NCBI GenBank assembly: GCA_947573925.1
Contig: CANPHS010000003.1
Span: forward strand, 1 to 48,448
Source: an uncultured Enterorhabdus sp.
Lineage (GTDB): Bacteria > Actinomycetota > Coriobacteriia > Coriobacteriales > Eggerthellaceae
Length of the DNA stretch: 48,448 nucleotides
Direction: 5' to 3'
Shown piece by piece: positions 10,915 through 48,446 of the stretch. The notes under the pieces are model-generated. The model was not told the origin of the DNA. It saw only the letters and a program-made list of their open reading frames with translations, and did not search any database. The translations under genes and the position numbers were made by a program. Numbering within the stretch: position 1 is the first letter of the stretch; every line of letters starts with the position of its first letter.

Positions 10915-10949
10915 CTTGAAGAAAAACTGGCGGAGGAGGAGGGATTCGA
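10915..10949. repeat. Partial tRNA-Ser 3' end / extra att-like copy
   Basis: 35 nt identical to 11084-11118, including 22 nt of the tRNA-Ser 3' end. It is followed by unrelated sequence, so it is not a tRNA. It probably marks an older integration scar 169 bp outside the present attachment site. Confidence 0.75.
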
Positions 10950-11096
10950 TGCGCCTCCGCCTTCGGCGAATTCGCGAGACCTCGCTTCGCTCGGCCCAGA
11001 ACAGCCCACTGGGCTGTTCTGCCTTCGCAGGGTTCGAATCCCAACGTTGCTGGAACCGCGCCAAACGCGAAAAGATTCACTTGCTTGAAGAAAAAC

Positions 11097-11122
11097 TGGC
11101 GGAGGAGGAGGGATTCGAACCC
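11097..11122. other. attL: Prophage left attachment site (26-bp core)
   Basis: TGGCGGAGGAGGAGGGATTC and the next 6 nt are identical to the 3' end of tRNA-Ser at 48354-48379. The match ends exactly at the next base. This defines the integration core. An Int-arm-like TGTTGCGC lies at 11161 and a short hairpin GTCCCGG-TT-CCGGGAC at 11204, just past the integrase stop. Confidence 0.88.
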
Positions 11123-11230: not shown

Positions 11231-12349
11231 CTATGAACCGCCCATGGCCGCGTCGATGATGTCCGCGTCCCCGCGCAGGTCGGCCAGCTTCGGCTTGACG
11301 TATCGGTTGTAGGTGGTGGACGTGTCGCAGTGCCCCATCCACTTGGCCAGCCGGGCCACGTCTATGCCGGCGTTGATGCACGACGTGCCGAAGCTGTGGC
11401 GCATGGAGAACTGCGTGAGGTGCGGAAGCGGCTCGCCGTTATCGTAGCGCAGGCTCGCCCCGAACACCCGGGCGATGCGCTTGCGGGCGGTGGAGGGGCG
11501 CATCCTGGCGCCCTTGGAATCCACGACCACCGGCCCATCCCCGCCGCCCCAGGCCTCTATGCGCCGCAGGGCGTGGGAGGTCATGGGCACCGGGCGCACC
11601 GCCTTGGGGGTCTTCGGGTCTCCCAAGACCGGCTCACCCTCCCCCTGGGTGTACGCCTGCACGACCTGGATGCGGCGCTCGCCCGGGAAGACCGTCTCCC
11701 AGTCCAGTCCCAGCACCTCCTCCTTGCGCAGCCCGAAGCACAGGCCGAGCACGCACATGCGCTCCTCGGGCGTGTTGGGATAATGCTCCTCCATGAAGTC
11801 CAGCACCTTCTGTATCTCCGCGAAGGTTGACAGCCACACGCCGAAGTGGTCGTCCGGGTGCTGCGCCGCCTTGGGGTAGCTGTAGGTGAAGCCGGCGGGA
11901 TTCACGGGCATGGCGCCCATCTCAACCGCCAGGGAGAGCACCGAGGAGAGCGTCTCGCGGGCGTTGGTGGCCACCTTCTTGGAGCTGCACGAGGAGATCA
12001 TGCGCTGGATGCGCAGCCTGTCCAGGTCCTCCAGGGCCACGTCACCGAAGGCCGGCAGCAGCCTCAGGTTCAGATCCCGGTTGTATCCCTTCACCGTGGT
12101 GGGCCGCAGGGCCGCCTTCTGGGGCCAGAAGTACTCGTCCACGAACTCCCTGAACGTGATGCCGCCGTAGGACTTGCCCTGGAGCCGTTCCTTCAGCAGG
12201 AGCAGCTTGCGCTCTGCCGCCTCGGCGTCCTTCTTCCTGCGGTGCGTGGAGGTGCGCCGATCCGGCGATCCGTCCAGCCTCCTGCCCACGGTCACGTCGG
12301 CGATCCAGCCGCCCTCGGGCCGCTTCCTCACGGACATGGTACAATGCAC
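11231..12349 (-). CDS. int: Prophage tyrosine integrase
   Basis: A 372-aa tyrosine recombinase with an N-terminal arm-binding domain, a SAM-like core-binding domain (about 60-150) and a C-terminal catalytic domain. I see the first Arg (LGLCFGLRKEE), FSMRHSFGT (second Arg present; the usual first His is replaced), MGHCDTSTTY and the nucleophile Tyr in NRYVKPK. The gene lies next to attL and reads toward it, as expected for the lysogeny integrase. The tracker start is a GTG; an ATG at 12337 (SVRKRPEGGW) is an equally likely start. It catalyses insertion and excision at the tRNA-Ser 3' end. Confidence 0.92.
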   Translation of the reverse strand: MHCTMSVRKRPEGGWIADVTVGRRLDGSPDRRTSTHRRKKDAEAAERKLLLLKERLQGKSYGGITFREFVDEYFWPQKAALRPTTVKGYNRDLNLRLLPAFGDVALEDLDRLRIQRMISSCSSKKVATNARETLSSVLSLAVEMGAMPVNPAGFTYSYPKAAQHPDDHFGVWLSTFAEIQKVLDFMEEHYPNTPEERMCVLGLCFGLRKEEVLGLDWETVFPGERRIQVVQAYTQGEGEPVLGDPKTPKAVRPVPMTSHALRRIEAWGGGDGPVVVDSKGARMRPSTARKRIARVFGASLRYDNGEPLPHLTQFSMRHSFGTSCINAGIDVARLAKWMGHCDTSTTYNRYVKPKLADLRGDADIIDAAMGGS

Positions 12350-13638: not shown

Positions 13639-14313
13639 TTACTCCATTTCCCTCGGGGACTGGTACCAAACAATTACGCCGGGTATCTCCACGGCGTGGT
13701 CGCTGTCGCGCCTTATGATGATGTCCTCGTGCTCGGGGTTGTGGGACTCCGGCGAGAGGATCATCGTGTTCGCGGTCAGCCTGAGCCGGCGAACTATGTA
13801 GTCGGATCCGTCAACGGACGCGATCACGATGGAGTTGTCCCGCGGCTCCTTCTTCTTCGACACCACGAGGTCGCTGCCCTCGGGGAACGCCTTGTCCATG
13901 CAGTCGCCCTCGCTGGACACCACGAAGCACTCGGGGTCTGATTCCAGGATGAAGTCCGGTACCTTGACCATGGTGGCCTCGTCGTAAGTTTCCGGCTCGG
14001 TGAGCACACCGGCGTGGACGCGCCCGAGCCTGGGGGCCAGGCCCATCTTCATGCCTACAGCGGGGCGGGCGTTCTGCGGCATTGCCGGAACGGTTCCGTG
14101 TTCCTTCGCCGCGAGGCCGTAGTTCGAGGACAGGATGTCGTCCTCAACCAGGTTGAAGTACGCGCAGATGTTGCTCAGCGCCTCCTTGCGGGGCTTCGAT
14201 CCCTTGCGCCACCCGGTCACCGCGCCTGGTGTCACCTCGGCGATGCGAGCCAGGTTGTCCTGCGTGATGTCGTACTTGACCAGCAAGGCGTCTATGTTCT
14301 CTGCAACTCCCAT
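13639..14313 (-). CDS. Phage repressor, HTH_XRE plus S24 domain with altered dyad
   Basis: A 224-aa CI/LexA-type repressor. Residues about 1-65 form an XRE helix-turn-helix (YDITQDNLARIAEVTPGAVT). A linker carries the Ala-Gly cleavage-like site (GRVHAGVL). The S24 peptidase-like domain follows. Where LexA and CI have the nucleophile Ser in GDSM, this protein reads GDCM; where they have the catalytic Lys, it reads YIVRRL. Both residues of the dyad are therefore changed, so RecA-stimulated self-cleavage may be lost. Start ATG 14313 has GAGG 7 nt upstream. It is transcribed divergently from the Cro-like gene. Confidence 0.88.
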   Translation of the reverse strand: MGVAENIDALLVKYDITQDNLARIAEVTPGAVTGWRKGSKPRKEALSNICAYFNLVEDDILSSNYGLAAKEHGTVPAMPQNARPAVGMKMGLAPRLGRVHAGVLTEPETYDEATMVKVPDFILESDPECFVVSSEGDCMDKAFPEGSDLVVSKKKEPRDNSIVIASVDGSDYIVRRLRLTANTMILSPESHNPEHEDIIIRRDSDHAVEIPGVIVWYQSPREME

Positions 14314-14358
14314 GGCCAACCTCATTCATAAAATCTCAACTGATTGCTATATTCTACC

Positions 14359-15510: not shown

Positions 15511-15556
15511 AAATGAGTGTTACTTTCCGAGTTTTACCAGATCAGATAGGAGGAGA
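15511..15556 (+). repeat. 46-bp direct repeat, copy 1
   Basis: Identical to 17595-17640 and ends with TAGGAGGAGA as the ribosome site of the next gene. In both copies it also contains an ATG-led reading frame (MSVTFRVLPDQIGG) in frame with the downstream gene. Confidence 0.9.
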
Positions 15557-17058: not shown

Positions 17059-17600
17059 CGAGGAAGGGCGCGAGGCAGCGCGAGTGGACGGTGGCAGAAC
17101 TCCAGCTGCTCAGGGACAACGCGGGGAAGGTGCCCCGCCGCGAGCTGAGCCGGATGCTGAAGCGCGGGGCAGGGTCGGTGAAGCAGCAGGTGTACCGCAT
17201 GCGGGCGCAGGGCGAGGACATTACCCTGCGGTGCTTCCGCAGCAGGCTGTCCACGTGCCCCGCCTGCGGCGCCCTGCGATCCCGCATGGGCAGCGAGGGC
17301 ATCTGCGAGCCGTGCCGCAGGAGGAGGCAGCTGGCCAAGGTGCACGAGCGCATCTCCCACCTGCTGGCGCAGCTGCCCCCTGATGAGCGGGCCGTCTACG
17401 ACGACACCGAGGCCGAGACCGAGTCCTCCCTCGACCCCATGCCCCCTCCCCCGCCCCTCGTCGGCCTGACCGCCTACGAGCGAGAGAGGGCCCTGGAGGC
17501 CCGCGAGATCGCCGTGGAGGACTGGCTCGCCCGAAACCTCAGGCGGCAGGTAAAGGCCGCCCAGAAGCGCAAGGAGCGCATCGCGAAAAAACTGAAATGA
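17055..17600 (+). CDS. Phage HTH / zinc-ribbon protein
   Basis: A 181-aa basic protein. Residues about 10-55 look like a SANT/HTH fold (REWTVAELQLLRDNAGKVPR). A treble-clef or zinc-ribbon pair of CxxC motifs follows (CPACG at about 77, CEPC at about 91), then a Pro-rich linker and a basic helical C-terminus. Probably a DNA-binding early regulator (inference). The ATG overlaps the RusA stop. Confidence 0.65.
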   Translation: MTRKGARQREWTVAELQLLRDNAGKVPRRELSRMLKRGAGSVKQQVYRMRAQGEDITLRCFRSRLSTCPACGALRSRMGSEGICEPCRRRRQLAKVHERISHLLAQLPPDERAVYDDTEAETESSLDPMPPPPPLVGLTAYERERALEAREIAVEDWLARNLRRQVKAAQKRKERIAKKLK

Positions 17601-17640
17601 GTGTTACTTTCCGAGTTTTACCAGATCAGATAGGAGGAGA
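17595..17640 (+). repeat. 46-bp direct repeat, copy 2
   Basis: Identical to 15511-15556. It overlaps the stop of the preceding gene and supplies the ribosome site of the ParB-like gene. Confidence 0.9.
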
Positions 17641-26541: not shown

Positions 26542-28197
26542 GTGCTCACCCCCAAGCAGGAGAAATACTGCCAGGCCCGCACGCGCGGGCTCTCCCAGCG
26601 CCAGGCGTACCGGGAGGCGTACCCCTCGGCAATCCGGTGGAAGGAATCCACGGTCGATACCAAGGCGTACGAGCTGGAGCGCAATGGTGAGATTTTGGAT
26701 AGGCTCGCCTACCTTCGCGAGGCCGCCGCCAAGGAGGCACGCATCACCCGCGCCCAGGTCATCGACCGCTTGGCCGACATAGCCGAGGACGCCTACGAGC
26801 GGGCCCGCGACGCCAGCCCCCTCAACTACGGCGCCGCTTCGAGCGCCGCCATCAGGAGCAGCGAGGCCCTTCTCAAATGGCTGCCCGAGGACGAGCCCGA
26901 GGCGCGGCCCGTGTTCGTGGCGGACTTCGGCCTCCTCATCGCCCCGGCCTTCCTGCGGCCCCACCGCCTCATCGCCGCGGGCGAGATCACCGACGTGTGG
27001 CTCGGCGGCGGCCGCGGCTCCATGAAGTCCTCCTTCGCCGCGCTCGAATTGGTCAACTGGATAGAGCGCCACCCCGACCAGCACGGCCTGGTGCTGATGC
27101 GCTACAAGAACTCCCTGCGCGACTCCGCCTACGCCCAGGTGGTGTGGGCCGTCAACATGCTGGGCCTGGCCGGCGAGTACGACATGCCGGACTCGACCCT
27201 GCGCATCAGGAAGAAATCGACGGGACAGCTCATCCTGTTCCGCGGGTGCGACAACCCCAAGAAGATCAAGTCCGTCAAGGTCCCCTTCGGCCACATCGGC
27301 ATCGGCTGGTACGAGGAGGCGGACATGTTCCGCGGCATGGCCGAGATCCGCATGGTCAACCAGTCGCTCACGCGCGGCGGGGCCGACTTCGTGCGCATCT
27401 ACAGCTACAATCCCCCGCGCTCGAAGACCTGCTGGATCAACGAGCACACCGAGGCCATCGAGGCGGCCGGCGGCGAGGTGTTCCGCTCGACGTACCTTGA
27501 GGCCCCGGCCGAATGGCTGGGAGCGCAGTTCATTGCCGACGCCGAGGAGCTGCGGCGCACCGACCCCAAGTCCTACGAGCACGAGTACCTGGGAATCCCC
27601 GTGGGCCTCGGCGGCAGCGTGTTCGACAACGCCGTGTTCCGCGAGGTGACAGACGAGGAGATAGCCGCCTTCGACAACATCAGGTGCGGCCAGGACTTCG
27701 GATGGTGGCCCGACCCGTGGGCCTTCGTCGTCAGCGAATGGCACCAGGCGAGCAGGACGCTCACCACGTACATAGAGGACGGCGGCAACAAGCTCCAGCC
27801 GGACGAGCAAGCCCAGCGCATCATCGACTTGCTCACATGGGCCGACGAACCGGGCGAGGCCCCCGAGTACCACCGCCTCACGGTGCGCTCCGACGATGCC
27901 AACCCCACCGCCATAGCCGCGCAGAAAGCTGCGGGAGTGAAGGCCGTGGCCGCCCAGAAGGGGAACATGCGCATGGCCTCCTACGAGTTCCTGGCCTCCA
28001 TCACCTGGATCATCGACCCCGAGCGGTGCCCACGCCTGGCCAAGGAGGTCAGGCAGATGGAGTACGAGCAGAACGCCGACGGCGAGTGGCTGAACTCCAT
28101 CCCCGACGGCAACGACCACTGGGTGGACTCGGCCCGCTACTCGGTCATGGACATCGCACGCAAGGGCAAGATGGCCTACGCGACATGGGCGGAATAA
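26542..28197 (+). CDS. Fused small-large terminase (PBSX-type TerL)
   Basis: A 551-aa packaging motor. Residues 1-about 105 form a terminase-small-subunit domain (LTPKQEKYCQARTRGLSQRQ, the usual TerS start). Residues about 125-551 are the large subunit: Walker A variant LGGGRGSMKSS, Walker B IGWYEEADMF, the arginine/coupling region, and the RNaseH-like nuclease with Asp residues in CGQDFGWWPD, RSDDANP and NDHWVDSARY. No separate TerS gene is seen. GTG start. It cuts concatemers and drives DNA into proheads; a fusion of both subunits is uncommon. Confidence 0.92.
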   Translation: MLTPKQEKYCQARTRGLSQRQAYREAYPSAIRWKESTVDTKAYELERNGEILDRLAYLREAAAKEARITRAQVIDRLADIAEDAYERARDASPLNYGAASSAAIRSSEALLKWLPEDEPEARPVFVADFGLLIAPAFLRPHRLIAAGEITDVWLGGGRGSMKSSFAALELVNWIERHPDQHGLVLMRYKNSLRDSAYAQVVWAVNMLGLAGEYDMPDSTLRIRKKSTGQLILFRGCDNPKKIKSVKVPFGHIGIGWYEEADMFRGMAEIRMVNQSLTRGGADFVRIYSYNPPRSKTCWINEHTEAIEAAGGEVFRSTYLEAPAEWLGAQFIADAEELRRTDPKSYEHEYLGIPVGLGGSVFDNAVFREVTDEEIAAFDNIRCGQDFGWWPDPWAFVVSEWHQASRTLTTYIEDGGNKLQPDEQAQRIIDLLTWADEPGEAPEYHRLTVRSDDANPTAIAAQKAAGVKAVAAQKGNMRMASYEFLASITWIIDPERCPRLAKEVRQMEYEQNADGEWLNSIPDGNDHWVDSARYSVMDIARKGKMAYATWAE

Positions 28198-28218: not shown

Positions 28219-29622
28219 ATGGGCTTGGCGAAGAACGAGTTCAAAATACCCGACCTGATCGTCCGCTACATCAAGAGGGCGGGCTACCGGATCGACACGG
28301 CCATGGCGCCGCACATCAACGAGTGGTGGAACTGGTACACTTGCTCCGACGCCTGGTACGAGCTGGAGTACCGCAAGCCGGACGACAGCACCGGCACGCG
28401 CCGAAGGCTCTCCCTGCACCCGCACCGCAGGGCGTGCAGGGAATGGGCCTCCATGCTCCTCAACGAGGATACGGGCATATCGGTCAACAAGAGCAAGGCC
28501 AACGAATGGCTCCAAACCTACCTGGAGGAGCACGGGTTCTGGCCCACCGGGCAGCAGCTCATCGAGAAGGCGTGGGCGCTCGGCACGGGAGCGTGGGCGC
28601 TGCGGTTCGACATAGGCGCCTCGGAGACCGATTCCAAGGTGTTGGTGCGCTGTTACGACGCTCGCATGGTCGTGCCCCTGTCCTGGACTCCCGATGGCGT
28701 GACCGAGTGCGCGTTCGTCACGGAGGTGTCCATAGAAGGCAAGAGGGCGCACCAGCTCTGCATGCACGTGATCGAGGAGGGCCGCTACGTCATCAAGACA
28801 GCCATGTTCCAGGGGAACCGAGAACTCGTCCCCGAGGAGCACGGGGCGCTGTCCTCATTCGACACGAAGTGCGCCACCCCCACCTTCGCACTCGTGAGGC
28901 CGGCCATCGAGAACACTGCCGTTGACCTGTCCCCCTACGGCATGAGCGTGTTCGCCGACGCGCTGGATGCGGCAAAGTCGGTCGATCTTGCCTACGACGC
29001 CCTGTTCCAGGAGATCGAGTTGACGGAGGCCATCGTGTTCCTGGATGAGTCGATGATCGACTTGCGCGACGATCACGGGAAGGCCGTGCCGGTCGCCATG
29101 GGCGACGGGGACAGGAAGTTCCGCAAGCTGGAGGGTCAGGACGGCAAGAACCTCTACGAGGTGTACTCCCCCGCCATCAGGACGGAGCCCATCCGCTCCG
29201 CCCTGGACGTGGCCCTCGCCGAGTTCGGCGATCTCGCCGGCTTCGGGCAGAACTACTTCACCCTTGACAAGTCGGGCGGCCTGAAGACCGCCACCGAGGT
29301 GTCCGCCGACAACTCGGCCCTCATGCGCAACATCCGCAAGCACGAGAACTCCATCAGGCGCTCGCTCCAGACGATCACGGGAAGCCTGCTCACTTGCGCC
29401 CGGATCCACTGCGGCGCGAAGATCGAGAAGAACTTCGGCCCGATAGAGGTGTCCTTCGACGACTCCATCATCGTGGACACCCAGGCCGAGAAGAACATGA
29501 TGCTCGCGGAGATCGCCGCAGGCGTGGTGCCGGCGTGGAAGTACATGGCCACGTTCTTCGACATGTCCGACGAGGAGGCCATGCGTTTGATCGGCACGAA
29601 CTCCGTGGACATGGGGGCGTAA
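28219..29622 (+). CDS. Portal protein (SPP1-type)
   Basis: A 467-aa protein forming the dodecameric DNA entry vertex. It has the portal layout (INEWWNWYTCSDAWYELEYR near the start; RIRSAL-like and TATEVSADNSALMRNIRKHE near the end). It follows the terminase by 21 nt with AGAGAGGAG before the ATG. Confidence 0.9.
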   Translation: MGLAKNEFKIPDLIVRYIKRAGYRIDTAMAPHINEWWNWYTCSDAWYELEYRKPDDSTGTRRRLSLHPHRRACREWASMLLNEDTGISVNKSKANEWLQTYLEEHGFWPTGQQLIEKAWALGTGAWALRFDIGASETDSKVLVRCYDARMVVPLSWTPDGVTECAFVTEVSIEGKRAHQLCMHVIEEGRYVIKTAMFQGNRELVPEEHGALSSFDTKCATPTFALVRPAIENTAVDLSPYGMSVFADALDAAKSVDLAYDALFQEIELTEAIVFLDESMIDLRDDHGKAVPVAMGDGDRKFRKLEGQDGKNLYEVYSPAIRTEPIRSALDVALAEFGDLAGFGQNYFTLDKSGGLKTATEVSADNSALMRNIRKHENSIRRSLQTITGSLLTCARIHCGAKIEKNFGPIEVSFDDSIIVDTQAEKNMMLAEIAAGVVPAWKYMATFFDMSDEEAMRLIGTNSVDMGA

Positions 29623-36326: not shown

Positions 36327-38849
36327 ATGGCATCCGACGGAACGATCACGTTCTCCACGGCGCTGGACAACTCGCAGCTGGAGAAGGGCATCAAGGCCGC
36401 CGAGCGCGAGGTGAAGCGCATCGAGGATAAGGTCTCGCGTGCCGAGACCACCAAGAGCGGCATCGAGAAGCAGATGGAGGCCGCAGAGGCCGCCATCAAG
36501 GAGACCGGCTCGGAGATCGACCGCCTCAACGCCAAGATGGCCGGGTTGGGCGGGGTGTCCGGCACCCGCGAGGGCTACGAGGCCCAGCGGGCCGAGATCG
36601 AGGGCACCGCCTCCGCGCTCGCGGCCGCACAGGCCCGGATGGAGTCCCAGGTCGCCGGCATCGACAAGCTGAACGGGCAGTGGCAGAAGGCCGACGAGCG
36701 GGCGCGGGCCTACACCGAGCAGCTGGGGCAGGCCAAGTCCCGCGCGGCGGAGCTGGGGGCTGAGTACCAGCGTTCGATGGCACGCGCGGCATCCTCCGCC
36801 GACATGGTGCGCAAGCGCCAGTCCGGGATCGGCGAGGCATACGCCAAATCGGTGGCCGCAGGCACCATGGACGCCGGGAAGTCGCTGTCGGCCTCGGAGG
36901 CCCGCTTCGCGCAGTTCTCCAAGCGCATAAAGACCATGATGAAGGACGCGTTCATCTTCTCTGGCGTACTCGTGGCCCTGAACGCCGTGAAGGAGCACCT
37001 GGCCGAGACCATGAAGGAGAACGACCGGTTCGCGGCGTCCTACGCCGTCCTCATGGCCACCATGAAGGGCTTCGCGGCACCGCTCGTGAACGCGGCAACG
37101 GCGGCCCTCACCGGCCTCATGAACATGCTGTCCCGGATGCTCGCGACCCTGGCGCAGCTCATCGACTCGGTGTTCCGCACCGACCTCTCCGGCTCAATCA
37201 AGGCCGCGAGGGCGGCCGCCCAGGCCGCCGAGCGCGAGGCAAAGGCCAAGAAGAAGACCGCCAAGGCGGCCAAGGAGGCCGCGAAATCGATCATGGCCTT
37301 CGACGAGATCAACGCCATGCAGGCGGACAAGAAGGACGAGAAGGACGACGAGCCCGCCGAGAAGCCGCTCGACTTCGACGCCCTGGGGGCCGGCAAGATC
37401 GACGAGGCCCTGGGGGCCATCATGGCCGTGCTGGGCGCGGCGCTCTTGGCCGTGGGCGCAATCCTGTGCTTCTCCGGCATCAACATCCCCCTCGGCATCA
37501 CGCTCATGGCCGTCGGGGCGCTCATGCTCTACACGGCCGTGCAGGAACAGTGGGGGAAGCTGCCCGCCGAGGTGCGGGAGGCCATCACGACGGCCCTCGT
37601 GATCGGCGGCCTGCTGTGCCTCGTCGTGGGTGCCGTCCTCGCCTTCTCCGGCGTCAACGTCCCCCTGGGCGTGGGGCTCATCGCCGCGGGCGCGGTAATG
37701 CTCGGGGCGGCGGTCGCCCTCAACTGGGGCAGCATGAGCGCCGAGGCCCAGGGGGTGGTGTCCGTCATGATGGGCATCCTGGGCGCGGCCCTGCTCGTCA
37801 TCGGCGCCATTCTGACCTTCACCGCCGCCAACCCCATGCTGGGCGTGGGGCTCATGATCCTGGGGGCCGCCGTGCTCGCGGCCGTGGTGGCCCTCAACTG
37901 GCAGAGCATGCCCGAGGAGGTGCAGGGCGTGGTCTCCGCGATCATGCTGATCGTCGGCATCGCCTTCCTCGTGCTCGGCGTGGTGCTCGCCTTCGCGGCT
38001 CCGGGGGCATGGGGGCTGGCGCTGGGCCTCATCATCGTGGGGGCCGCCGCCCTCGCCGGGGCGGTCGCCCTCAACTGGGAGAAGATGCCCAAGGAGGTCA
38101 GGGACACGGTGTCCACCATCATGGGCATCGTGGGCGGGGCCCTCGTGGTCATCGGCGTAATCCTGCTGTTCACCGGTGCGGGAATCCCCCTCGGCGTGGG
38201 CTGCATCCTCGCGGGCGCGGGACTGCTCGCCGCAGACGCCGCCCTCAACTGGGACTTCCTCAAGGACAAGATCGCAGAGATATGGGCGTCGATCTGCCGC
38301 TTCTGGGACGACAACATAGCCCAGGTGTTCACCGAGCAGTTCTGGGAGGATTTGTGGAAGTCCATGGTGAACGGCCTCATCTGGGCCATCAACTCCGGGC
38401 TGTCGGCCTTCGGCGGTTTCCTCAACGACATCTCGTCGGGCATCGGCGGCCTCTTGGGCGCCGTCGGCATCAACGACTGGTCGGGGTGGAACGTGCAGAT
38501 GCCGCAGATACCCTACCTGGCCCAGGGCGCGGTCATCCCGCCCAACCGCAAGTTCGCCGCCGTGCTGGGCGATCAGACGAGCGGCAACAACCTGGAGGCC
38601 CCCGAATCCCTCATCCGCCAGATCGTGCGCGAGGAGTCCGGGGGCATCGACGCCGACGCGCTGGCCTGGGCGGTGCAGCAGGGCGTGGCCATGGCCATCG
38701 TGCAGGCCATGCCCTCCCAGGGCGCCGGCGACAGCGACGCTACGATGGTCCTGCAAGTTGACGGCGAGGAGCTTGCCCGGGCCGTGGCCCGGGGCAACGC
38801 CTCGCTCATGTGGAAGGGGGCGTTGAGCCCCGAGATCCAGTTCGCGTAG
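36327..38849 (+). CDS. Tape measure protein with tandem membrane repeats
   Basis: An 840-aa protein that sets tail length and is ejected during infection. It has an N-terminal coiled coil (about 1-200) and a hydrophobic region with an Ala/Lys-rich stretch. Residues about 355-650 hold five tandem repeats of about 60 aa, each made of two membrane helices (AVGAILCFSGINIPLGI ... ALNWGSMSAEAQGVV; ALNWQSMPEEVQGVV; ALNWEKMPKEVRDTV). About 10 predicted helices could form the membrane channel. The C-terminus is a tail-tip domain. Confidence 0.9.
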   Translation: MASDGTITFSTALDNSQLEKGIKAAEREVKRIEDKVSRAETTKSGIEKQMEAAEAAIKETGSEIDRLNAKMAGLGGVSGTREGYEAQRAEIEGTASALAAAQARMESQVAGIDKLNGQWQKADERARAYTEQLGQAKSRAAELGAEYQRSMARAASSADMVRKRQSGIGEAYAKSVAAGTMDAGKSLSASEARFAQFSKRIKTMMKDAFIFSGVLVALNAVKEHLAETMKENDRFAASYAVLMATMKGFAAPLVNAATAALTGLMNMLSRMLATLAQLIDSVFRTDLSGSIKAARAAAQAAEREAKAKKKTAKAAKEAAKSIMAFDEINAMQADKKDEKDDEPAEKPLDFDALGAGKIDEALGAIMAVLGAALLAVGAILCFSGINIPLGITLMAVGALMLYTAVQEQWGKLPAEVREAITTALVIGGLLCLVVGAVLAFSGVNVPLGVGLIAAGAVMLGAAVALNWGSMSAEAQGVVSVMMGILGAALLVIGAILTFTAANPMLGVGLMILGAAVLAAVVALNWQSMPEEVQGVVSAIMLIVGIAFLVLGVVLAFAAPGAWGLALGLIIVGAAALAGAVALNWEKMPKEVRDTVSTIMGIVGGALVVIGVILLFTGAGIPLGVGCILAGAGLLAADAALNWDFLKDKIAEIWASICRFWDDNIAQVFTEQFWEDLWKSMVNGLIWAINSGLSAFGGFLNDISSGIGGLLGAVGINDWSGWNVQMPQIPYLAQGAVIPPNRKFAAVLGDQTSGNNLEAPESLIRQIVREESGGIDADALAWAVQQGVAMAIVQAMPSQGAGDSDATMVLQVDGEELARAVARGNASLMWKGALSPEIQFA

Positions 38850-39260: not shown

Positions 39261-41465
39261 ATGATCAACACGTCATTCGAGTTCCGCCAGAGGATCGCCG
39301 ACACCGCCGACGTGCGCGTGAGGGCCCAGCTCGTGCTGGCCGACGGGAGGCGGATGGACCTTTCCGGCGACGACATAGCCGGCAACTCGCTGGCCTTCGA
39401 CCAGTCGGTGTCCTCGCAGGGCAGTTTCGACGTCGGCGGCGCCATCGTCGGCGGGCTGAAGCTCACCCTCAACAACGACGGGCGGCGCTTCGACGACATC
39501 GACTTCGACGGATCGCGGATCATCCCATCCGTTGGCGTGGACGTGGGCGGGGAGGTGGAGTGGCTGCGCAAGGGCACCTACTGGGTGGAGCAGCCGAGGA
39601 GCTATAGCGAGACCATCCCCCTGTCATGCGTCGATTCGATGTCGAAGTTCGACGTGCCCTACTCCAGGGTCGGCACGCGCTACCCCGCCACCGCCCAGAC
39701 GGTGGTGCGTGACGTGTGCCAGGCCTGCGGCGTGCCCCTCCTGGACGCCGCCTTCCACGGCTGGCAGACCGTCTTCAAGCAGCGCCCCGACAACGACCCC
39801 ACGTGCCGGCAGGTGCTCTCGTGGGCGGCCCAGGCCACGGGCAACTGGGCGAGGGTGACCGCCGACGACCGCATGGAGCTGGCGTGGTACGACCCCTCCG
39901 TGTGGGACGAGGAGGACTGGCTCGACGGCGAGGAGTTCGACGACGCCAGCCCCTACCAGAGCGGCAGCGACGCCGACGGCGGCAACTTCATCGACTACTC
40001 GTCGGGCGATTCCTACGACGGCGGCAGCTTCGAGACGGGCCGCATCGTGCACATCCACGCCTACTCCGACGCCACCCTGGCCACCGACGACGTGGTGGTG
40101 ACCGGCATCCGCGTGACCGCGTCCGACGAGGTGCGGCCCGACGGCTCCAAGGGCGCCAAGGGCGAGACGGTGACGGTGGGATCGGAGGGTTACGTGCTGG
40201 AGGCGTCGGGCAACCCGCTGGTGTCCTACGGCGAGGCCCGCGCAACGGCGTCCCGCATAGCGGCCCGCACGGTGGGCCTGCGCTTCCGCCCCTTCGACGT
40301 GTCCTGCATAGGCGACCCGAGGGTTGAGCCCGGAGACCCCGCCATCATCACCGACCGCCACCAGAACGCCCACAGGGGCTACCTCACGCGCGTGGCCTAC
40401 AAGGTCGGCGGCTTCGCTGCCTACTCCTGCTCGGCGAAATCGCCGCTGCGCAACGCGGCGGCAGGAGGCGGGGCGTTCACGCGGGCCATCCTGGGCCTGG
40501 CCGAGGACGTGCGCAACGAGCAGACGGCCCGCGAGATCGCCTTGCAGCGCCTCAACGACGACCTTGCGGCGGCACCGGGCATGTACGTCACCACGAAGAG
40601 CGAGGACGGCGGCACCAGCTGGTACCTGCACGACAAGCGCGACCTCAAGGACTCCAAGATCGTGTGGAAGGTCAACTCCGCCGGGTTCGGAATGTCCATC
40701 GACGGCGGGAAGAACTACTCTTACGGCCTGGACAAGTGGGGCAACGCCATCCTCAACACGGTGTACGCCATCGGGCTGAATGCCGACCACATCACTGCCG
40801 GCAGCCTGCGCGTGAGAAGCGGCGGCAAGACGATCTTCTGCGCGGACGTGCGGGCGGGACAGTTCTGGTGGGATTCCACGTACAGCAAACTGTCGAACAC
40901 CGGCGCGCTCACGGTAACTTCAGGCAAAATCGCCGGGTTCACCGTCTCGGGCAACAAGCTGTACACCTCACGGAGTTCTTTGAAAAGCATTGCAAACGGT
41001 GTTTATGTGGGAAGCGACGGCATTTCAACGGGCAACGGTGCCAACTGGTGCGCCATCTCCAGCGGGGCCTTCTTCGGAGGAAATGGCAGTTCGACTGAAA
41101 AGGGATGGCTATCCCTCGCCTACAACTTCCCCTCATCTAAAAAGCAAGTCTCGATCTTGGCGGGACAGGCCGGCGTGTGCATCCTGGGCGGCCTGTATGT
41201 CGGGAACTACGTATCACGTGGAAGTTCCCCTTCCGTTTGGGAGGGAACGAGTCCGACTTTAAGATGCTCACGTATAAAAAGCGGCTACACCGTGAAAAGA
41301 GTGGCACTGACGGGAAAGCGAACCCTGCAAGTTGCCTTGGCAAATGACAAGGGGCAGGTTGTCGGGTGCGACAAGATAACCGTGTTCAAGGATGTCACGT
41401 TCACACCTGGAGCAATCACCCAGGAAAGCCTGACGTTCAAGAAGGGCATTGTTATAAGTTCCTAG
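39261..41465 (+). CDS. Tail tip / receptor-binding protein with variable C-terminus
   Basis: A 734-aa tail protein. The N-terminal half (about 1-420) resembles the tail hub region of siphovirus tail proteins (KLTLNNDGRRFDDIDFDGSR; GVDVGGEVEWLRKGTYWVEQ). The middle has GGTSWYLHDKRDLKDSKIVW and the phage structural IDGGKNY-type repeat. From about residue 545 the DNA becomes AT-richer and Ser/Gly/Lys-rich (SSLKSIANGVYVGSDGISTG), suggesting a transferred host-specificity domain. Confidence 0.82.
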   Translation: MINTSFEFRQRIADTADVRVRAQLVLADGRRMDLSGDDIAGNSLAFDQSVSSQGSFDVGGAIVGGLKLTLNNDGRRFDDIDFDGSRIIPSVGVDVGGEVEWLRKGTYWVEQPRSYSETIPLSCVDSMSKFDVPYSRVGTRYPATAQTVVRDVCQACGVPLLDAAFHGWQTVFKQRPDNDPTCRQVLSWAAQATGNWARVTADDRMELAWYDPSVWDEEDWLDGEEFDDASPYQSGSDADGGNFIDYSSGDSYDGGSFETGRIVHIHAYSDATLATDDVVVTGIRVTASDEVRPDGSKGAKGETVTVGSEGYVLEASGNPLVSYGEARATASRIAARTVGLRFRPFDVSCIGDPRVEPGDPAIITDRHQNAHRGYLTRVAYKVGGFAAYSCSAKSPLRNAAAGGGAFTRAILGLAEDVRNEQTAREIALQRLNDDLAAAPGMYVTTKSEDGGTSWYLHDKRDLKDSKIVWKVNSAGFGMSIDGGKNYSYGLDKWGNAILNTVYAIGLNADHITAGSLRVRSGGKTIFCADVRAGQFWWDSTYSKLSNTGALTVTSGKIAGFTVSGNKLYTSRSSLKSIANGVYVGSDGISTGNGANWCAISSGAFFGGNGSSTEKGWLSLAYNFPSSKKQVSILAGQAGVCILGGLYVGNYVSRGSSPSVWEGTSPTLRCSRIKSGYTVKRVALTGKRTLQVALANDKGQVVGCDKITVFKDVTFTPGAITQESLTFKKGIVISS

Positions 41466-42744: not shown

Positions 42745-43371
42745 ATGCCTTACATCGACTTGGGGCCGGTCGTCGGCAAGGACGGCGGGTTCGGGAACAT
42801 CACGAGCGACTACGTCAACGACGGCGGCAGCCCCGGCGTGGAGATCACCATGAGCGGCGAGGACGCCGCGAAGGACTTCCACTTCGAGTTCAAGAACCTG
42901 GTTAACGACCCGCTGACGAGCGCGGAGGTGAAGGCCATCGCCGCCGGCGAGCAGGTGCAGTCCTCAAGCGTCGTCAACGGCACGACACTGAGCCAGTTCT
43001 TCGGGCTGCTCGCCGAGGCGTTCGCGCCGGCCGACCACCAGCACGACGCCTCGGACGTGACGTCAGGCACGTTCTCGGGCGACATGCTGGCCGACAAGGC
43101 CGTGACCGCCGACAAGATCGCAGATAATGCGATAACCGCCGCCCAGATAGCCGACGGCACCATCACCCAAGCCAAGCTCGACGAGGCAACCCGGGATTGC
43201 TTGTCCCCGGTTCGAGTATGGGGAGGGGGAGAGTTCCCCTACAACAAGCCCACGGACCGCTCCTTTAGGGCATTCGGAGTCTACGGCTACTACGTCGCCG
43301 TTGACTCCGGGTCCAACGTTTGGGGCGGCTGCATCCTGAGCGATAACACCGTGACGTGGGTTAAGAGGTGA
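42745..43371 (+). CDS. Tail fibre with switchable C-terminus (expressed cassette A)
   Basis: A 208-aa fibre. The constant part (about 1-150) ends with the typical fibre repeat HQHDASDVTSGTFSGDMLAD and KADKI/ITAAQIADGTIT-type turns. At codons 151-154 (DCLS) it enters the 12-bp site ATTGCTTGTCCC, and the last 54 residues (PVRVWGGGEFPYNKP ... VTWVKR) are cassette A, lying wholly inside the 190-bp inverted repeat. The same 12-bp site, in the same frame, precedes two other C-termini. Inversion would replace cassette A with B (giving about 248 aa) or C (about 250 aa). ATG after AGGAGT. Confidence 0.88.
   Translation: MPYIDLGPVVGKDGGFGNITSDYVNDGGSPGVEITMSGEDAAKDFHFEFKNLVNDPLTSAEVKAIAAGEQVQSSSVVNGTTLSQFFGLLAEAFAPADHQHDASDVTSGTFSGDMLADKAVTADKIADNAITAAQIADGTITQAKLDEATRDCLSPVRVWGGGEFPYNKPTDRSFRAFGVYGYYVAVDSGSNVWGGCILSDNTVTWVKR
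43196..43207 (+). other. Shufflon site s1
   Basis: ATTGCTTGTCCC, plus orientation, inside the fibre frame (GAT TGC TTG TCC). Junction of constant region and expressed cassette. Confidence 0.8.
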
Positions 43372-43382
43372 TTGCTTGTCCC
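43371..43382 (+). other. Shufflon site s2
   Basis: ATTGCTTGTCCC, plus orientation; its first base is the last base of the cassette A stop codon (TGA). Begins cassette B in the same frame phase as s1. Confidence 0.8.
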
Positions 43383-43666
43383 AGAAAGACTGGATCGCCA
43401 TCTCCGAGGGCGTGATGGCGGCCAGGGCGGGTATGTTCGCGGTGGTTCTGGTCGACGTTCAGAAAAACTTCGCGCCGCGGGAGTGGACGGAGCTCGCCAC
43501 CCTCCCGGAGGGGATGAGGCCCGGCAGGACCCTCTACATGGACTCCCAGATAGGGGGCTACACCGCCCGCGCCTACGCCAACGCCGACGGCCTGCTGCAG
43601 GTCTACAACCTGCGATCTGCCGCCGGCAGCGCGATGGCCGACACTCTGCTCGTGCCGCTGGTGTGA
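43376..43666 (+). CDS. Silent tail-fibre C-terminal cassette B
   Basis: A 96-residue frame beginning with TTG TCC inside site s2: LSQKDWIAISEGVMAARAGM, then LATLPEGMRPGRTLYM and ARAYANADGLLQVYNL. It reads like a beta-rich fibre tip. It has no ATG; a TTG after AGAGGTG could start it weakly, but the phase of the 12-bp site shows that it joins the fibre frame after recombination. It ends 3 nt from the stop of cassette C on the other strand. Confidence 0.82.
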   Translation: MSQKDWIAISEGVMAARAGMFAVVLVDVQKNFAPREWTELATLPEGMRPGRTLYMDSQIGGYTARAYANADGLLQVYNLRSAAGSAMADTLLVPLV

Positions 43667-43669
43667 CCC

Positions 43670-43966
43670 CTACGCGGCGTAGGAGTCGTGCCAGCGGCAC
43701 GACGTGCCCACGGTGCCCCCGTGCACCCTGATGCGGCCCTCCTCGATGGCGAGGTGCCCTGCCGGCGTGTCGCAGTACACGATGCCGGCCAAGGGCGCGG
43801 GCAGCGCGGGGCTGGTGAGTACCTGCTCGTACCCGCCGGTATGGGCGTAGACGCAGGTGATCAGCCCCGACACGTGCACGGTGTGCCCGTCGCGGTAGAT
43901 GCGCACCTGCTCGATCTTGTGGGTGGCGTTGGCAGTGTTCGCGGCCACCTCGTTTCTCTGGGACAA
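43670..43966 (-). CDS. Silent tail-fibre C-terminal cassette C
   Basis: A minus-strand 98-residue frame beginning TTG TCC in site s3: LSQRNEVAANTANATHKIEQ, then RIYRDGHTVHVSGLITCVYA and SPALPAPLAGIVYCDTPAGH, ending CRWHDSYAA. It looks like an alternative fibre tip similar in style to B (a TVSG-like strand, LP.PL). Inversion between s1 and s3 would join it in frame to the fibre constant region. Confidence 0.82.
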   Translation of the reverse strand: MSQRNEVAANTANATHKIEQVRIYRDGHTVHVSGLITCVYAHTGGYEQVLTSPALPAPLAGIVYCDTPAGHLAIEEGRIRVHGGTVGTSCRWHDSYAA

Positions 43967-43971
43967 GCAAT
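43960..43971 (-). other. Shufflon site s3
   Basis: ATTGCTTGTCCC on the minus strand, opposite in orientation to s1 and s2. Begins cassette C. Confidence 0.8.
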
Positions 43972-44146
43972 CACCTCTTAACCCACGTCACGGTGTTATC
44001 GCTCAGGATGCAGCCGCCCCAAACGTTGGACCCGGAGTCAACGGCGACGTAGTAGCCGTAGACTCCGAATGCCCTAAAGGAGCGGTCCGTGGGCTTGTTG
44101 TAGGGGAACTCTCCCCCTCCCCATACTCGAACCGGGGACAAGCAAT
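43971..44146 (-). pseudogene. Silent second copy of cassette A
   Basis: Minus-strand DNA encoding LSPVRVWGGG ... VTWVKR, identical to the expressed cassette, without a start codon or constant region. It shows that the arm has been duplicated in inverted form. Confidence 0.85.
44135..44146 (-). other. Shufflon site s4
   Basis: ATTGCTTGTCCC on the minus strand, at the outer edge of the right arm, 3 bp from the recombinase stop codon. Confidence 0.8.
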
Positions 44147-44149
44147 GCC

Positions 44150-45118
44150 CTACGCGGCCATGGGCAGCTCCACGGGTGCGGGGGTCAGCTGGATGCCCCT
44201 GTACATGTCGTCGCAGGTCTTGCCGAGTATGCGGCGGGACAGCTTGCGCTGGGCGCGGAGCACCTTGGCGCGGGTAAGCGCGATGTAGTAGCGGTAGCAC
44301 GTGCCGATGTCGCTGTGCCCGAGCATCCCCGCCAGGTCGTTGATGGGCACGAGGTCGGCGGCCAGGGTCGCGAACGTGTGCCTGAAGTTCTGCATGGTGA
44401 TCTTGGGCAACTTGTGGGTCTTTATCCACCGCCGCACCCGGTAGGACGCCTGTGCGGGCGTCAGCTCGCCGATCACGCGGCCCTTGGGGCGGCCCCGCCC
44501 CACCCATATCTGGTGCAGCCTGTCCAAGGCCCAGGGCGGCAGGTACAGGTCGCGCTCGCCCTTGGCGGTCTTGGTCGGCCATTCGCGCGTGCCGTCCGAT
44601 GTCGTCTGGAGCGTGGCGCGTATGGGCACGAGGCCGGTGCGCCAGTTGACCTGCTCCCACTTGAGGGCGTAGCTCTCGCCGGGCCTGAGCCCCAGCGATG
44701 CCGAGAGGATGACCGTGGCCTCCACCTCGCAGCCCACCATGCCGCGTATGAGCTTTTTCAGCCTGCGGTGCGTCAGCGTCTCGGGCCGGTAGGCGGGCAC
44801 GCGGGGCTTCTCCACGTGCTGGGTGGGGTCCCACACCCTCATGCGCCACTTGGCGAGCGCCCAGCGCACGATCTGGCGCAGGCACTTGTACGCCTTCCAC
44901 GCGCCCCCGGGGCCGCACTCCTTGGCCATGTCGTCAACCCAGGCCTGCACCTCGTCAGGGTCGATGGCCGCGATGGTCGCGCCCGCCCAGCGGGGCAGCA
45001 CGTGGAGCCTGATGCTGCTCTCGTAGCCGTCAACCGTGTTGGTGCGGCGGCGCGACCTCTTGGCCGGCAGGTAGTGCTCCAGGGCGATCTGCCCGATGGT
45101 GAGGGATGCGGGGTTCAT
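44150..45118 (-). CDS. Tyrosine recombinase, probable shufflon invertase
   Basis: A 322-aa tyrosine recombinase: N-terminal core-binding domain (DEVQAWVDDMAKECGPGGAW) and catalytic domain with the first Arg (SLGLRPGESYALKW), the beta-hairpin Lys region (TKTAKGERDLYLP), NFRHTFATL (second Arg; the usual first His is Gln) and LGHSDIGTCYRYYIAL with the nucleophile Tyr. Start ATG 45118 has GAAGGAGG 6 nt upstream. The phage already has an integrase at its other end, and this gene stops 3 bp from an array of inverted sites, like Rci of plasmid R64. It most probably inverts the fibre cassettes (inference). Confidence 0.85.
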   Translation of the reverse strand: MNPASLTIGQIALEHYLPAKRSRRRTNTVDGYESSIRLHVLPRWAGATIAAIDPDEVQAWVDDMAKECGPGGAWKAYKCLRQIVRWALAKWRMRVWDPTQHVEKPRVPAYRPETLTHRRLKKLIRGMVGCEVEATVILSASLGLRPGESYALKWEQVNWRTGLVPIRATLQTTSDGTREWPTKTAKGERDLYLPPWALDRLHQIWVGRGRPKGRVIGELTPAQASYRVRRWIKTHKLPKITMQNFRHTFATLAADLVPINDLAGMLGHSDIGTCYRYYIALTRAKVLRAQRKLSRRILGKTCDDMYRGIQLTPAPVELPMAA

Positions 45119-45194: not shown

Positions 45195-45680
45195 ATGGAT
45201 GCAGCGATCGACTGGCATCCCATCGCCGTGATCACAGTTCTGATGGTGCTCGATATCCTCACAGGATTCGGCGGCGCAGCGAAGGACAGCACCGTGGAGT
45301 CCGGCAAGATGCGCGAAGGCCTTTGGCACAAGGCGGGGTTCTACGGCCTCGTAGCCCTTGCCGCCGTATGGGAAGTCGGAAGCGTGTGGCTCAATGCGGA
45401 GGTGTCTGGCATCGGGGTGTCCGTGCCGCAGATACCCGCAGTGGGCGCGGTGTGCACATTCGTAGCGGCAACCGAGGTGGTCTCCATTCTGGAGAACCTG
45501 TGCGTGCTCAACCCGGACATCGCCGAGCTGCCGGTGATCAAGCGGCTGAAGCCCCACGACCTGGAAAAGGCGGCGGAGAAAACGGGCGCCGATGACTGGA
45601 AGACCGTTGTAACGGAAGACGACGATGACTGGGGCTACAGCCCCATGTACGACGGCGACGACGAGATGGAGGCGGAGTAA
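45195..45680 (+). CDS. Holin
   Basis: A 161-aa protein of the phage holin/toxin-secretion type (PF05105-like): an N-terminal helix (PIAVITVLMVLDILTGFGGA with the conserved D-x-x-TG), two more hydrophobic segments (KAGFYGLVALAAVWEVGSVW; AVCTFVAATEVVSILENLCV) and an acidic C-terminal tail. It permeabilises the inner membrane and lies directly before the endolysin. AAAGGAG precedes the ATG. Confidence 0.88.
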   Translation: MDAAIDWHPIAVITVLMVLDILTGFGGAAKDSTVESGKMREGLWHKAGFYGLVALAAVWEVGSVWLNAEVSGIGVSVPQIPAVGAVCTFVAATEVVSILENLCVLNPDIAELPVIKRLKPHDLEKAAEKTGADDWKTVVTEDDDDWGYSPMYDGDDEMEAE

Positions 45681-46576
45681 TGACGAAGGTTGCTAACTGC
45701 GGGCACGACGAGCGCGGCAAGTACTCTGGGGGGAAGCCCGGAGACCAGTCCGGCACGGAGTGGTACGTCCGAGAGGACTACGACTTCGGCCAGAGCGTGT
45801 TCCTGGTGCACCCCAACGACAAGGTGAACGACCTCATGGCCCGCATGGCCGTCAACGGGGCCAGGAACGACCACGTGGGCTACTGCCAGGGGCACCGCAC
45901 CACGTTCTACGAGGCCTTGAAGCGCAACAAGTGGGTGGTGGGCACGATCAAGGAGGACTGCGAGTCGGACTGCTCCTCGGGCGTGGCGGCCCTGGGCGAG
46001 GCGTGCGTGCAGCGCCTCAAGCTCGGCAAGGCCCACATCTCCAAGGACGTGTACACCGGCAACCTCAAGGCGGCCTTCGTCGCGGCGGGGTGGAAGGCCT
46101 ACACCAAAGCCGAGCTGCTTGGGAAGTACGGCAAGAAGCCCAAGGGCTGCATCCAGCTCAACCCGAGCCGCCACGTGAACGTGGTGGTGGAGGGGGCGTC
46201 CAACCTGGCGGCGGCCGCGAAGCCGAAACCCAAGCCCTCGTCCGGCGCTAAGGTCGCCAAGCCGAGCGCCGCGTGGGTGAGGTCTTTGCAGGACGCCTGC
46301 AACAAGGCCGGCCGCAGCAAGCAGGCCGTGGACGGCATCCCCGGCCCCGACACGCTGGCCGGCTGCCCGACCCTGCGCAGGGGCGGCAAGGGCGCAATCG
46401 TCAAGCTCATGCAGCAGCGCCTCGTCTCCCTGGGATACTCCTGCGGTAGCTGCGGCGCGGACGGCGACTTCGGCCCCGGCACGGAGGGCGCGGTGCGCAA
46501 GTTCCAGGCGACCGCGGGCATCGCGTCCGACGGCATCGCAGGACGCGACACGTGGCGCAAGCTGCTCTGCCTGTAG
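45680..46576 (+). CDS. Endolysin with C-terminal peptidoglycan-binding domains
   Basis: A 298-aa lysin. The N-terminal catalytic domain (about 1-170) has a Cys (VANCGHDERGKYSGGKPGDQ) and a late His (NPSRHVNVVV), suggesting an NlpC/P60- or CHAP-like cysteine peptidase. A Lys/Pro-rich linker and a peptidoglycan-binding module follow (LRRGGKGAIVKLMQQRLVSL ... DGDFGPGTEGAVRKFQATAG). The first base of its ATG is the last base of the holin stop, so the two are coupled. Confidence 0.85.
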   Translation: MTKVANCGHDERGKYSGGKPGDQSGTEWYVREDYDFGQSVFLVHPNDKVNDLMARMAVNGARNDHVGYCQGHRTTFYEALKRNKWVVGTIKEDCESDCSSGVAALGEACVQRLKLGKAHISKDVYTGNLKAAFVAAGWKAYTKAELLGKYGKKPKGCIQLNPSRHVNVVVEGASNLAAAAKPKPKPSSGAKVAKPSAAWVRSLQDACNKAGRSKQAVDGIPGPDTLAGCPTLRRGGKGAIVKLMQQRLVSLGYSCGSCGADGDFGPGTEGAVRKFQATAGIASDGIAGRDTWRKLLCL

Positions 46577-46647: not shown

Positions 46648-47454
46648 ATGGGAAAGGGCGGCGCCACATCCCAGACGAAGGAGCTGTTCGAGGACTACGA
46701 CGGCTTCGTGGAGAAGTTCAAGCCGAAGAAGACCACCGACGACTGCTACACGCCGCCGCAGGTGTACCGGGCCGTCCTGGACTGGGCGGCGGCCGAGTAC
46801 GGCCTTGCCGGCCGCGAGATCGTGAGGCCCTTCTTCCCGGGCGGCGACTACGAGCGCCACCCGTACCCGGAGGGCTGCGCCGTGGTCGACAACCCGCCGT
46901 TCTCCATCCTGGCCCGGATCGTGCGATTCTATATGGCGCGGGGCATCGACTTCTTCCTGTTCGCCCCGGCGCTCACGGTTTTCGGCCTGCTGCGCCAGGA
47001 GGGCGTCTGCGCCGTGTGCGCCGGCGCGGCGGTGGAGTATGAGAACGGGGCCCAAGTGAACACCAGCTTCGTCACCAACATGGAGCCGTGGCGGGCGCGG
47101 TCGGCCCCCGACCTGAACGAGGCGATCGCCCGCGCCGTGGCGGACTTCCGCCGCGAGAGGCGGCGCGAGCTGCCCAGGTACGAGTACCCCGACGCGGTGC
47201 TGACGGCCGCCAGGCTCAACTACATGAGCAACCACGGGACCGACTACCGCGTGGCCGCCGGCGACTGCTCCAGGATCTCGGCCATGGACGCGCAGCGGCC
47301 CCACGGCAAATCGGTGTTCGGGGGGGGGTTGCTCCTCTCCGAGCGTGCGGCGGCAGAGCGTGCGGCGGCAGAGCGTGCGGCGGCAGAGCGTGCGGCGGCC
47401 AGAAAATGGGAGCTGTCGCCGCACGAGCGGGAGGCGCAGCGCCGGCTCGGGTAG
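46648..47454 (+). CDS. Adenine DNA methyltransferase (EcoRI-like) with G9 tract
   Basis: A 268-aa protein with the N6-adenine methyltransferase motif IV as DNPPFS (VVDNPPFSILARIVRFYMAR) and the layout of the EcoRI-modification family (TTDDCYTPPQVYRAVLDWAA; FLFAPALTVFGLL). Near codons 225-227 the DNA has nine consecutive Gs, and 20 bases later four perfect 15-bp repeats encode ERAAA units. G9 tracts in methyltransferases are typical slippage switches. Losing one G would fuse the frame to the downstream amidase frame. GGAGG precedes the ATG. It could methylate phage or host DNA in the lysogen. Confidence 0.78.
   Translation: MGKGGATSQTKELFEDYDGFVEKFKPKKTTDDCYTPPQVYRAVLDWAAAEYGLAGREIVRPFFPGGDYERHPYPEGCAVVDNPPFSILARIVRFYMARGIDFFLFAPALTVFGLLRQEGVCAVCAGAAVEYENGAQVNTSFVTNMEPWRARSAPDLNEAIARAVADFRRERRRELPRYEYPDAVLTAARLNYMSNHGTDYRVAAGDCSRISAMDAQRPHGKSVFGGGLLLSERAAAERAAAERAAAERAAARKWELSPHEREAQRRLG
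47320..47328 (+). repeat. Poly-G (G9) tract
   Basis: Nine Gs inside the methyltransferase coding region; a candidate slipped-strand site. Confidence 0.95.
47341..47400 (+). repeat. Four tandem 15-bp repeats
   Basis: GAGCGTGCGGCGGCA repeated four times (last base differs in copy 4), in frame, encoding (ERAAA)x4. Changes of copy number would keep the frame. Confidence 0.95.
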
Positions 47455-48156: not shown

Positions 48157-48192
48157 AGGCCCCGGCTACGCATTAATGCGTAGCCGGGGCCT
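48157..48192 (+). terminator. Perfect 36-bp palindrome terminator
   Basis: AGGCCCCGGCTACGCATT and its exact complement, followed by TTTTCTG. Confidence 0.9.
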
Positions 48193-48353: not shown

Positions 48354-48379
48354 TGGCGGAGGAGGAGGGATTCGAACCC
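48354..48379. other. attR: Prophage right attachment site (26-bp core)
   Basis: The 3' end of tRNA-Ser (including CCA), identical to 11097-11122. The prophage end therefore restores an intact tRNA. Confidence 0.88.
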
Positions 48380-48446
48380 TCGTCACCGGGAGCACCGGTG
48401 AAACGGTTTTCGAGACCGCCGCATTCAACCACTCTGCCACCCCTCC
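48354..48446 (-). tRNA. tRNA-Ser(CGA)
   Basis: A complete 93-nt tRNA: acceptor GGAGGGG/CTCCTCC, anticodon loop CTCGAAA (anticodon CGA, reads TCG), a long variable arm (CACCGGTGCTCCCGGTG), T-arm GAGGG-TTCGAAT-CCCTC and encoded CCA. The prophage is inserted at its 3' end. Confidence 0.95.

Follow-up and report, generated by a model that had tools for sequence, protein, structure and literature searches.

The Rin shufflon is an established type of inversion system, reported with read evidence of inversion from Bifidobacterium prophages (PMC6109161) and also from prophages of Eggerthella lenta (PMC8778435). In the Bifidobacterium systems, a constant receptor-binding protein gene precedes alternative C-terminal cassettes that lie behind short asymmetric sites, the active tip is normally a cassette enclosed by a direct pair of such sites, and the distal tyrosine recombinase is arm-less and separate from the integrase (PMC6109161). 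The E. lenta shufflon genes are reported to carry H-type lectin domains (PMC8778435). Multiple inversion by a tyrosine recombinase also characterizes the R64, or IncI, shufflon, in which Rci and its sfx sites switch the PilV pilus adhesin of a plasmid. The sfx site is asymmetric: its 7-bp spacer and its right arm are conserved, whereas its left arm varies (PMC11852207). Tail fibres are likewise switched by DNA inversion in phages Mu, P1 and p15B, through the serine recombinases Gin, Cin and Min, and Min also serves a multi-cassette system. The sites of these invertases are 26 bp long and work with an enhancer.

The type is thus known, and what is new is the locus described here as a further member. 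We consider it very probable that this locus is a Rin-type shufflon in an Adlercreutzia prophage, switching the tip of a fibre among three alternative cassettes, A, B and C. Like its Bifidobacterium counterpart, it has a constant fibre gene with in-frame alternative C-termini, a short local site, a direct pair of these sites flanking one cassette, and an arm-less tyrosine recombinase distinct from the prophage integrase. It departs from the reported system (PMC6109161) in its site, which is ATTGCTTGTCCC rather than TTCCCTAACCC, and in its tips, of which there are three different ones rather than five, with one present twice in the assembly. The clade 1 Rin shufflon of E. lenta belongs to the same host family, and its reported 8-bp repeat ttccgtat lies within ATTCCGTATCCC, which is the site seen most often in the relatives; the likeness is drawn from site and host, and the site cores differ (GCTTG here, CCGTA there; PMC8778435). 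Our sites resemble R64 sfx in form. R64 has a longer conserved site, whereas the present locus has a 12-bp site and a prophage fibre gene between tail and lysis genes. Unlike in the Gin, Cin and Min systems, the enzyme beside the segment is a tyrosine recombinase.

The window, that is, the whole stretch of 48,448 nucleotides analysed, is one complete contig of a 2.42-Mb metagenome-assembled genome (MAG) of 213 contigs, whose lengths go down to 2507 bp, a pattern typical of a short-read bin. The MAG is assigned to Adlercreutzia on the ground that two genomes sharing its genus are A. caecimuris B7 and A. muris. A prophage spans about 11.1 to 48.4 kb of it, and the shufflon lies between the tail genes and the lysis genes. 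The landmarks of the prophage are as follows.

11097-11122, plus strand: probable att core, left copy, TGGCGGAGGAGGAGGGATTCGAACCC, a 26-bp repeat
11231-12349, minus strand: prophage integrase, separate from rin, 372 aa, SAM-like domain from residue 65
13639-14325: S24-type repressor
26542-28197: terminase
28219-29622: portal
36327-38849: tape measure
39261-41465: tail protein
45195-45680, plus strand: holin (Phage_holin_4_1)
45680-46576, plus strand: endolysin (ELLD domain and PG_binding_1)
48354-48379, plus strand: probable att core, right copy, inside the 3' end of tRNA-Ser(cga)
48354-48446, minus strand: tRNA-Ser(cga)

An exact 46-bp direct repeat (15511-15556 and 17595-17640, spacing 2084 bp) was set aside as a candidate att site because the 26-bp repeat in tRNA-Ser fits better. 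One of its copies lies 8 bp past tRNA-Arg(cct), and the other overlaps the start of a ParB-like gene at 17597. The left end of the prophage (10915-11122) holds two stretches resembling the 3' end of tRNA-Ser (10928-10949 and 11097-11122), 169 bp apart, a doubling that is perhaps the trace of an earlier integration. Two further repeats were observed, a 15-bp tandem repeat of GAGCGTGCGGCGGCA in about four copies (47341-47399) and, near the right end of the prophage, an inverted repeat consisting of AGGCCCCGGCTACGCATTAATGCGTAG and its overlapping reverse complement (48157-48192).

The shufflon itself comprises these elements.

42745-43371, plus strand: receptor-binding or tail-fibre gene as assembled, 208 aa, constant part joined to cassette A
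43196-43385, plus strand: left 190-bp arm, cassette A with two direct sites
43196-43207, plus strand: rix site s1, ATTGCTTGTCCC, which with the upstream GGG gives the form GGGA-N7-TCCC
43371-43382, plus strand: rix site s2, direct repeat of s1, overlapping the TGA stop of cassette A
43370-43666, plus strand: cassette B, alternative C-terminus of 98 codons that continues the frame of the constant part
43670-43972, minus strand: cassette C, 100-codon alternative C-terminus, frame as for B
43957-44146, minus strand: right 190-bp arm (A'), exact reverse-complement copy of the left arm, either a real duplicate or an assembly chimera
43960-43971, minus strand: inner right rix site, at the start of cassette C
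44135-44146, minus strand: outer right rix site, with the stop codon of rin 3 bp away
44153-45118, minus strand: rin, arm-less tyrosine recombinase, 322 aa, adjoining the cassettes

The ATG of the fibre gene is preceded by GGAG, and its constant N-terminus (42745-43194) encodes 150 residues that are 60% and 48% identical to the constant parts of two related loci, L046 and L045. PHROGs matches to tail-fibre families (phrog_892, E 5e-7, and phrog_28766) suggest that the constant gene forms the base of a receptor-binding fibre, to which the cassettes would add receptor-binding tips. At the site, GAT TGC TTG TCC C carries the reading frame of the constant gene into each of the three cassettes, which yield full fibres of 208 (A), 248 (B) and 250 (C) residues; the stop codon of A falls inside the next site, s2. 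The cassettes have no match to one another at E 1e-5, and A is present twice at 100% identity in the assembly, the second copy being a possible artefact. Outside the locus, B shares 33% identity with a rin-proximal cassette of L043, and C shares 65% with cassettes of L033, L044 and L048. A Pfam search of A, B and C returned no family; among ten cassettes of relatives only two were matched, to H_lectin (below the cut-off) and to Gp53-like_C. Such H-type lectin-like and gp53-like fibre C-termini in the relatives fit with receptor binding by the tips.

The two 190-bp arms are reverse complements of one another with zero mismatches, and a chance origin for so long a perfect inverted repeat is excluded. 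On the outside their identity ends precisely where the outer sites end, and on the inside it runs 3 bp beyond the inner sites. The sequence-only reading had proposed that each arm is bounded by two direct sites, and the exact site positions bear this out: the left pair is direct, the right pair is direct, and the two pairs face in opposite directions. ATTGCTTGTCCC occurs in four exact copies in the window and nowhere else in it or in the MAG. Taken alone, the repeated 12-mer is weak evidence, because the right sites are copies of the left ones through the arm duplication and because 11% of crude shuffles of the 1.4-kb region contain some repeated 12-mer. The sites become convincing because related loci carry 3 to 12 copies of the same form at the same places. 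Copies of ATTGCTTGTCCC were also sought in 140 genomes of the family, which gave only single or scattered matches outside the window, and the site extended by three bases gave only 24 single, scattered matches in IMG/VR.

The gene beside the outer right site, rin, has AGGAGG ahead of its ATG at 45118. Its product contains the Pfam domains PF00589 and PF14659, is XerC/XerD-like in sequence, and has an AlphaFold model (pLDDT 86.7) that matches Tn1549 Int, XerA and lambda Int. Residues R145, K183, R246, H268 and Y277 are conserved in an alignment with relatives and, by our own assignment, fit the catalytic set of tyrosine recombinases. The SAM-like domain starts at residue 13, as against residue 65 in the phage integrase, whose N-terminus is about 50 residues longer ahead of that domain; Rin thus lacks the arm-binding domain. 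The roughly 45 residues past the catalytic tyrosine carry a conserved motif, GKTxDDMYxGI, and this C-terminal stretch could correspond to the additional domain that Rci has at its C-terminus. Rin is 35% identical to the recombinase of Bifidobacterium phage PMBT6 and 31% identical to that of phage ctl617, and the repeated TTCCGTAACCC adjoins both of those genes; its kinship to Bifidobacterium Rin is judged through these two enzymes. PHROG labels Rin an integrase, and the enzyme might on that account be the integrase of the phage, with the cassettes static. We find this scarcely credible, given that a second, longer integrase adjoins the probable att site at 11.1 kb, that Rin sits between the tail and lysis genes, and that its versions in relatives adjoin shuffled cassettes. 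Most likely, Rin inverts DNA between oppositely oriented sites and thereby selects the fibre tip.

Relatives of Rin with 45-77% identity are found in Eggerthellaceae genomes and in IMG/VR. Fifteen related loci share the layout, in Adlercreutzia caecimuris, A. muris, A. faecimuris, Parvibacter caecicola, Gordonibacter, Enteroscipio and IMG/VR phages, and each carries next to rin 3 to 12 copies of one 12-bp site (ATTCCGTATCCC, ATTCGCTGTCCC, ATTCCTTGTCCC, ATTCCTTATCCC or ATTCCAAATCCC). In complete loci the series of sites begins inside the constant gene and finishes beside the rin stop codon or close to it, and each cassette starts with a site. All of the shufflon sites match ATT-N5-TCCC, with an N5 that is uniform inside a locus and varies among loci. 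The sites of the relatives were picked by a script with the pattern ATT-N6-CCC, so that the site ends are partly imposed; a pattern-free repeat finder had found the same repeats. L052 gives one additional ATT-N5-TCCC match: the left arm of one of its sites fits as well, and the site therefore matches when read in reverse. Two loci with Rin proteins of about 50% identity (L054 and L056) had no such repeated site in the DNA examined.

The Rin proteins of L046 and L048 are 96% identical, yet their sites have the cores CGCTG and CCGTA, respectively. Such a pairing is expected if two partner sites need to agree in the core, as their overlap, and the enzyme recognizes the frame around it. The constant ATT-N5-TCCC frame is probably what the enzyme would need, and N5 (GCTTG in the window locus) is probably the overlap that partner sites would have to share. 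The third base upstream of the sites is G in 89% of cases, and the complete site may accordingly be longer than the 12-mer: an inverted repeat of imperfect form, GGGA-N7-TCCC, with a loose left arm and with the 12-mer as its spacer and right arm.

Comparisons among the relatives place the recombination events at these sites. L033 (A. caecimuris B7) and L044 (IMG/VR 3300005461_001043) have in common a two-cassette segment of 596 bp, 94% identical and site-bounded, that lies in opposite orientations. An identical left flank continues into different cassettes, with the switch at the site, when L033_3 is compared with L044_6 and L043_1, and the constant genes of L036 and L047 are 93% identical as far as the site and divergent beyond it. 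These junctions uphold the earlier proposal that exchange is located at the 12-bp site. They also bear on the idea that the arms recombine solely by general homologous recombination, with the 12-mers incidental. For such recombination, 190 bp of perfect identity suffices. We reject homology as the sole route, as very improbable, because the relatives, which have no long arms and just 12-bp sites, nonetheless display an inverted segment and junctions whose exchange stops at the site; nor could this route bring B or C behind the constant region, despite their in-frame design.

Two further pairs differ in another manner. L049 (IMG/VR 3300006139_000064) has one extra, rin-proximal cassette of 163 bp, site included, relative to L039 (Parvibacter caecicola DSM 22242), and the flanks around it are 98.6% and 92% identical between the two. 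L044 and L048 (IMG/VR 3300027374_000008) are 100% identical over 5416 bp ending at the final base of a rix site, past which their rin regions are about 70% identical; judged from these sequences, the pair looks like a natural recombinant of two phages at the 12-bp site. Both cases indicate that exchange at direct sites and between loci has occurred on an evolutionary scale.

Three points about the window locus are inferred: its sites are substrates of this Rin, it is still switching, and its tips recognize receptors. Rin would pair two oppositely oriented sites and exchange strands inside the 12-bp site, inverting the intervening DNA. Each inversion would set A, B or C in frame behind the constant part, so that whichever cassette adjoins s1 would supply the C-terminal tip of the fibre. 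Computer enumeration for four sites, by inversion only, gives six isomers, four presenting A, one B and one C. The isomer logic of the sequence-only reading proves correct: recombination of s1 with the inner right site places C behind the constant region, recombination with the outer right site places the copy of A there, and two steps are needed for B. The parental and fully inverted forms yield an identical fibre, as had been claimed, and can be told apart only by words of 192 bp or more. The accompanying warning that short reads would miss switching consequently applies only below a sequence length of 192 bp; switching would be visible to longer reads and to read pairs. Searches for close relatives, in which the prophage was compared with phages by megablast for a form with another isomer and cassette A and the constant protein were searched in IMG/VR, found none.

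The duplication of A, on which the earlier reading also relied, is exact in the contig, and may be either real or an artefact of assembly. None of the 15 related loci contains a duplicate, and no pair of cassettes within any of these loci exceeds 40% identity. A locus with a single A and three sites (constant-s1-A-s2-B|C-s-rin) has four isomers, which together contain all of its substrings in this contig's sequence to a length of 604 bp. Three cassettes with three sites probably make up the natural unit, and the exact second A may therefore be chimeric, joined from two isomers; an assembler could produce this contig from a population in which some molecules read constant-A-B|C-rin and others constant-B|C-A'-rin. 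We put the chance that A' is such a chimera at slightly better than even. Besides the substring result, the contig contains precisely the junctions expected (constant-A, A-B, A-C and A-rin), the locus is the sole one of 16 that joins one flank to two partners within itself, the arms are 100% identical, and the source MAG has a short-read character. Misassembly of shufflons is documented, long reads included (PMC5430464), and four related contigs (L034, L037, L040 and L043) end inside or beside the shufflon. Against a chimera, the same artefact is absent from the metagenomic relatives, the contig passes both copies of A unbroken, and a recent genuine duplication would likewise be identical. A comparison of the window ends with the other contigs of the MAG, made in search of the word length of the assembler, found only short tRNA-like matches in common.

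That A' is real, with A excised or copied by recombination at direct sites and inserted at the rin-proximal site, we rate at a little under even; both weights are judgements and not computed values. The gain and loss of cassettes at direct sites among the relatives make a real copy possible. L049 and L039 differ by exactly one such rin-proximal cassette, L044 and L048 part at the last base of a site, and the edges of A' coincide exactly with sites. Set against this are the lack of duplicates in the relatives, the reported avoidance of deletion between direct rix sites (PMC6109161) and the fact that the artefact requires no additional event. More speculatively, and in our view unlikely, Rin would go beyond inversion, cutting out and inserting individual cassettes at direct sites and linking the arrays of different phages at the site, with A' as a freshly captured cassette. 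If this were true, Rin shufflons would grow and swap tips in a somewhat integron-like way, and the N5 core would be a matching code that separates the arrays of different phages.

Whichever origin A' has, the locus carries a caution that mirror-image cassettes in MAG shufflons can arise from assembly. The comparison yields a simple site rule, ATT-N5-TCCC with a locus-specific core. The available portions of PMC6109161 and PMC8778435 mention neither a common site frame with a locus-specific core nor the gain and loss of cassettes at direct sites. Such natural gain and loss bears on how deletion between direct rix sites is avoided, a question raised in PMC6109161. The presence of Rin shufflons across the gut prophages of Eggerthellaceae suggests that this route of receptor switching is widespread among the Actinobacteria of the gut.
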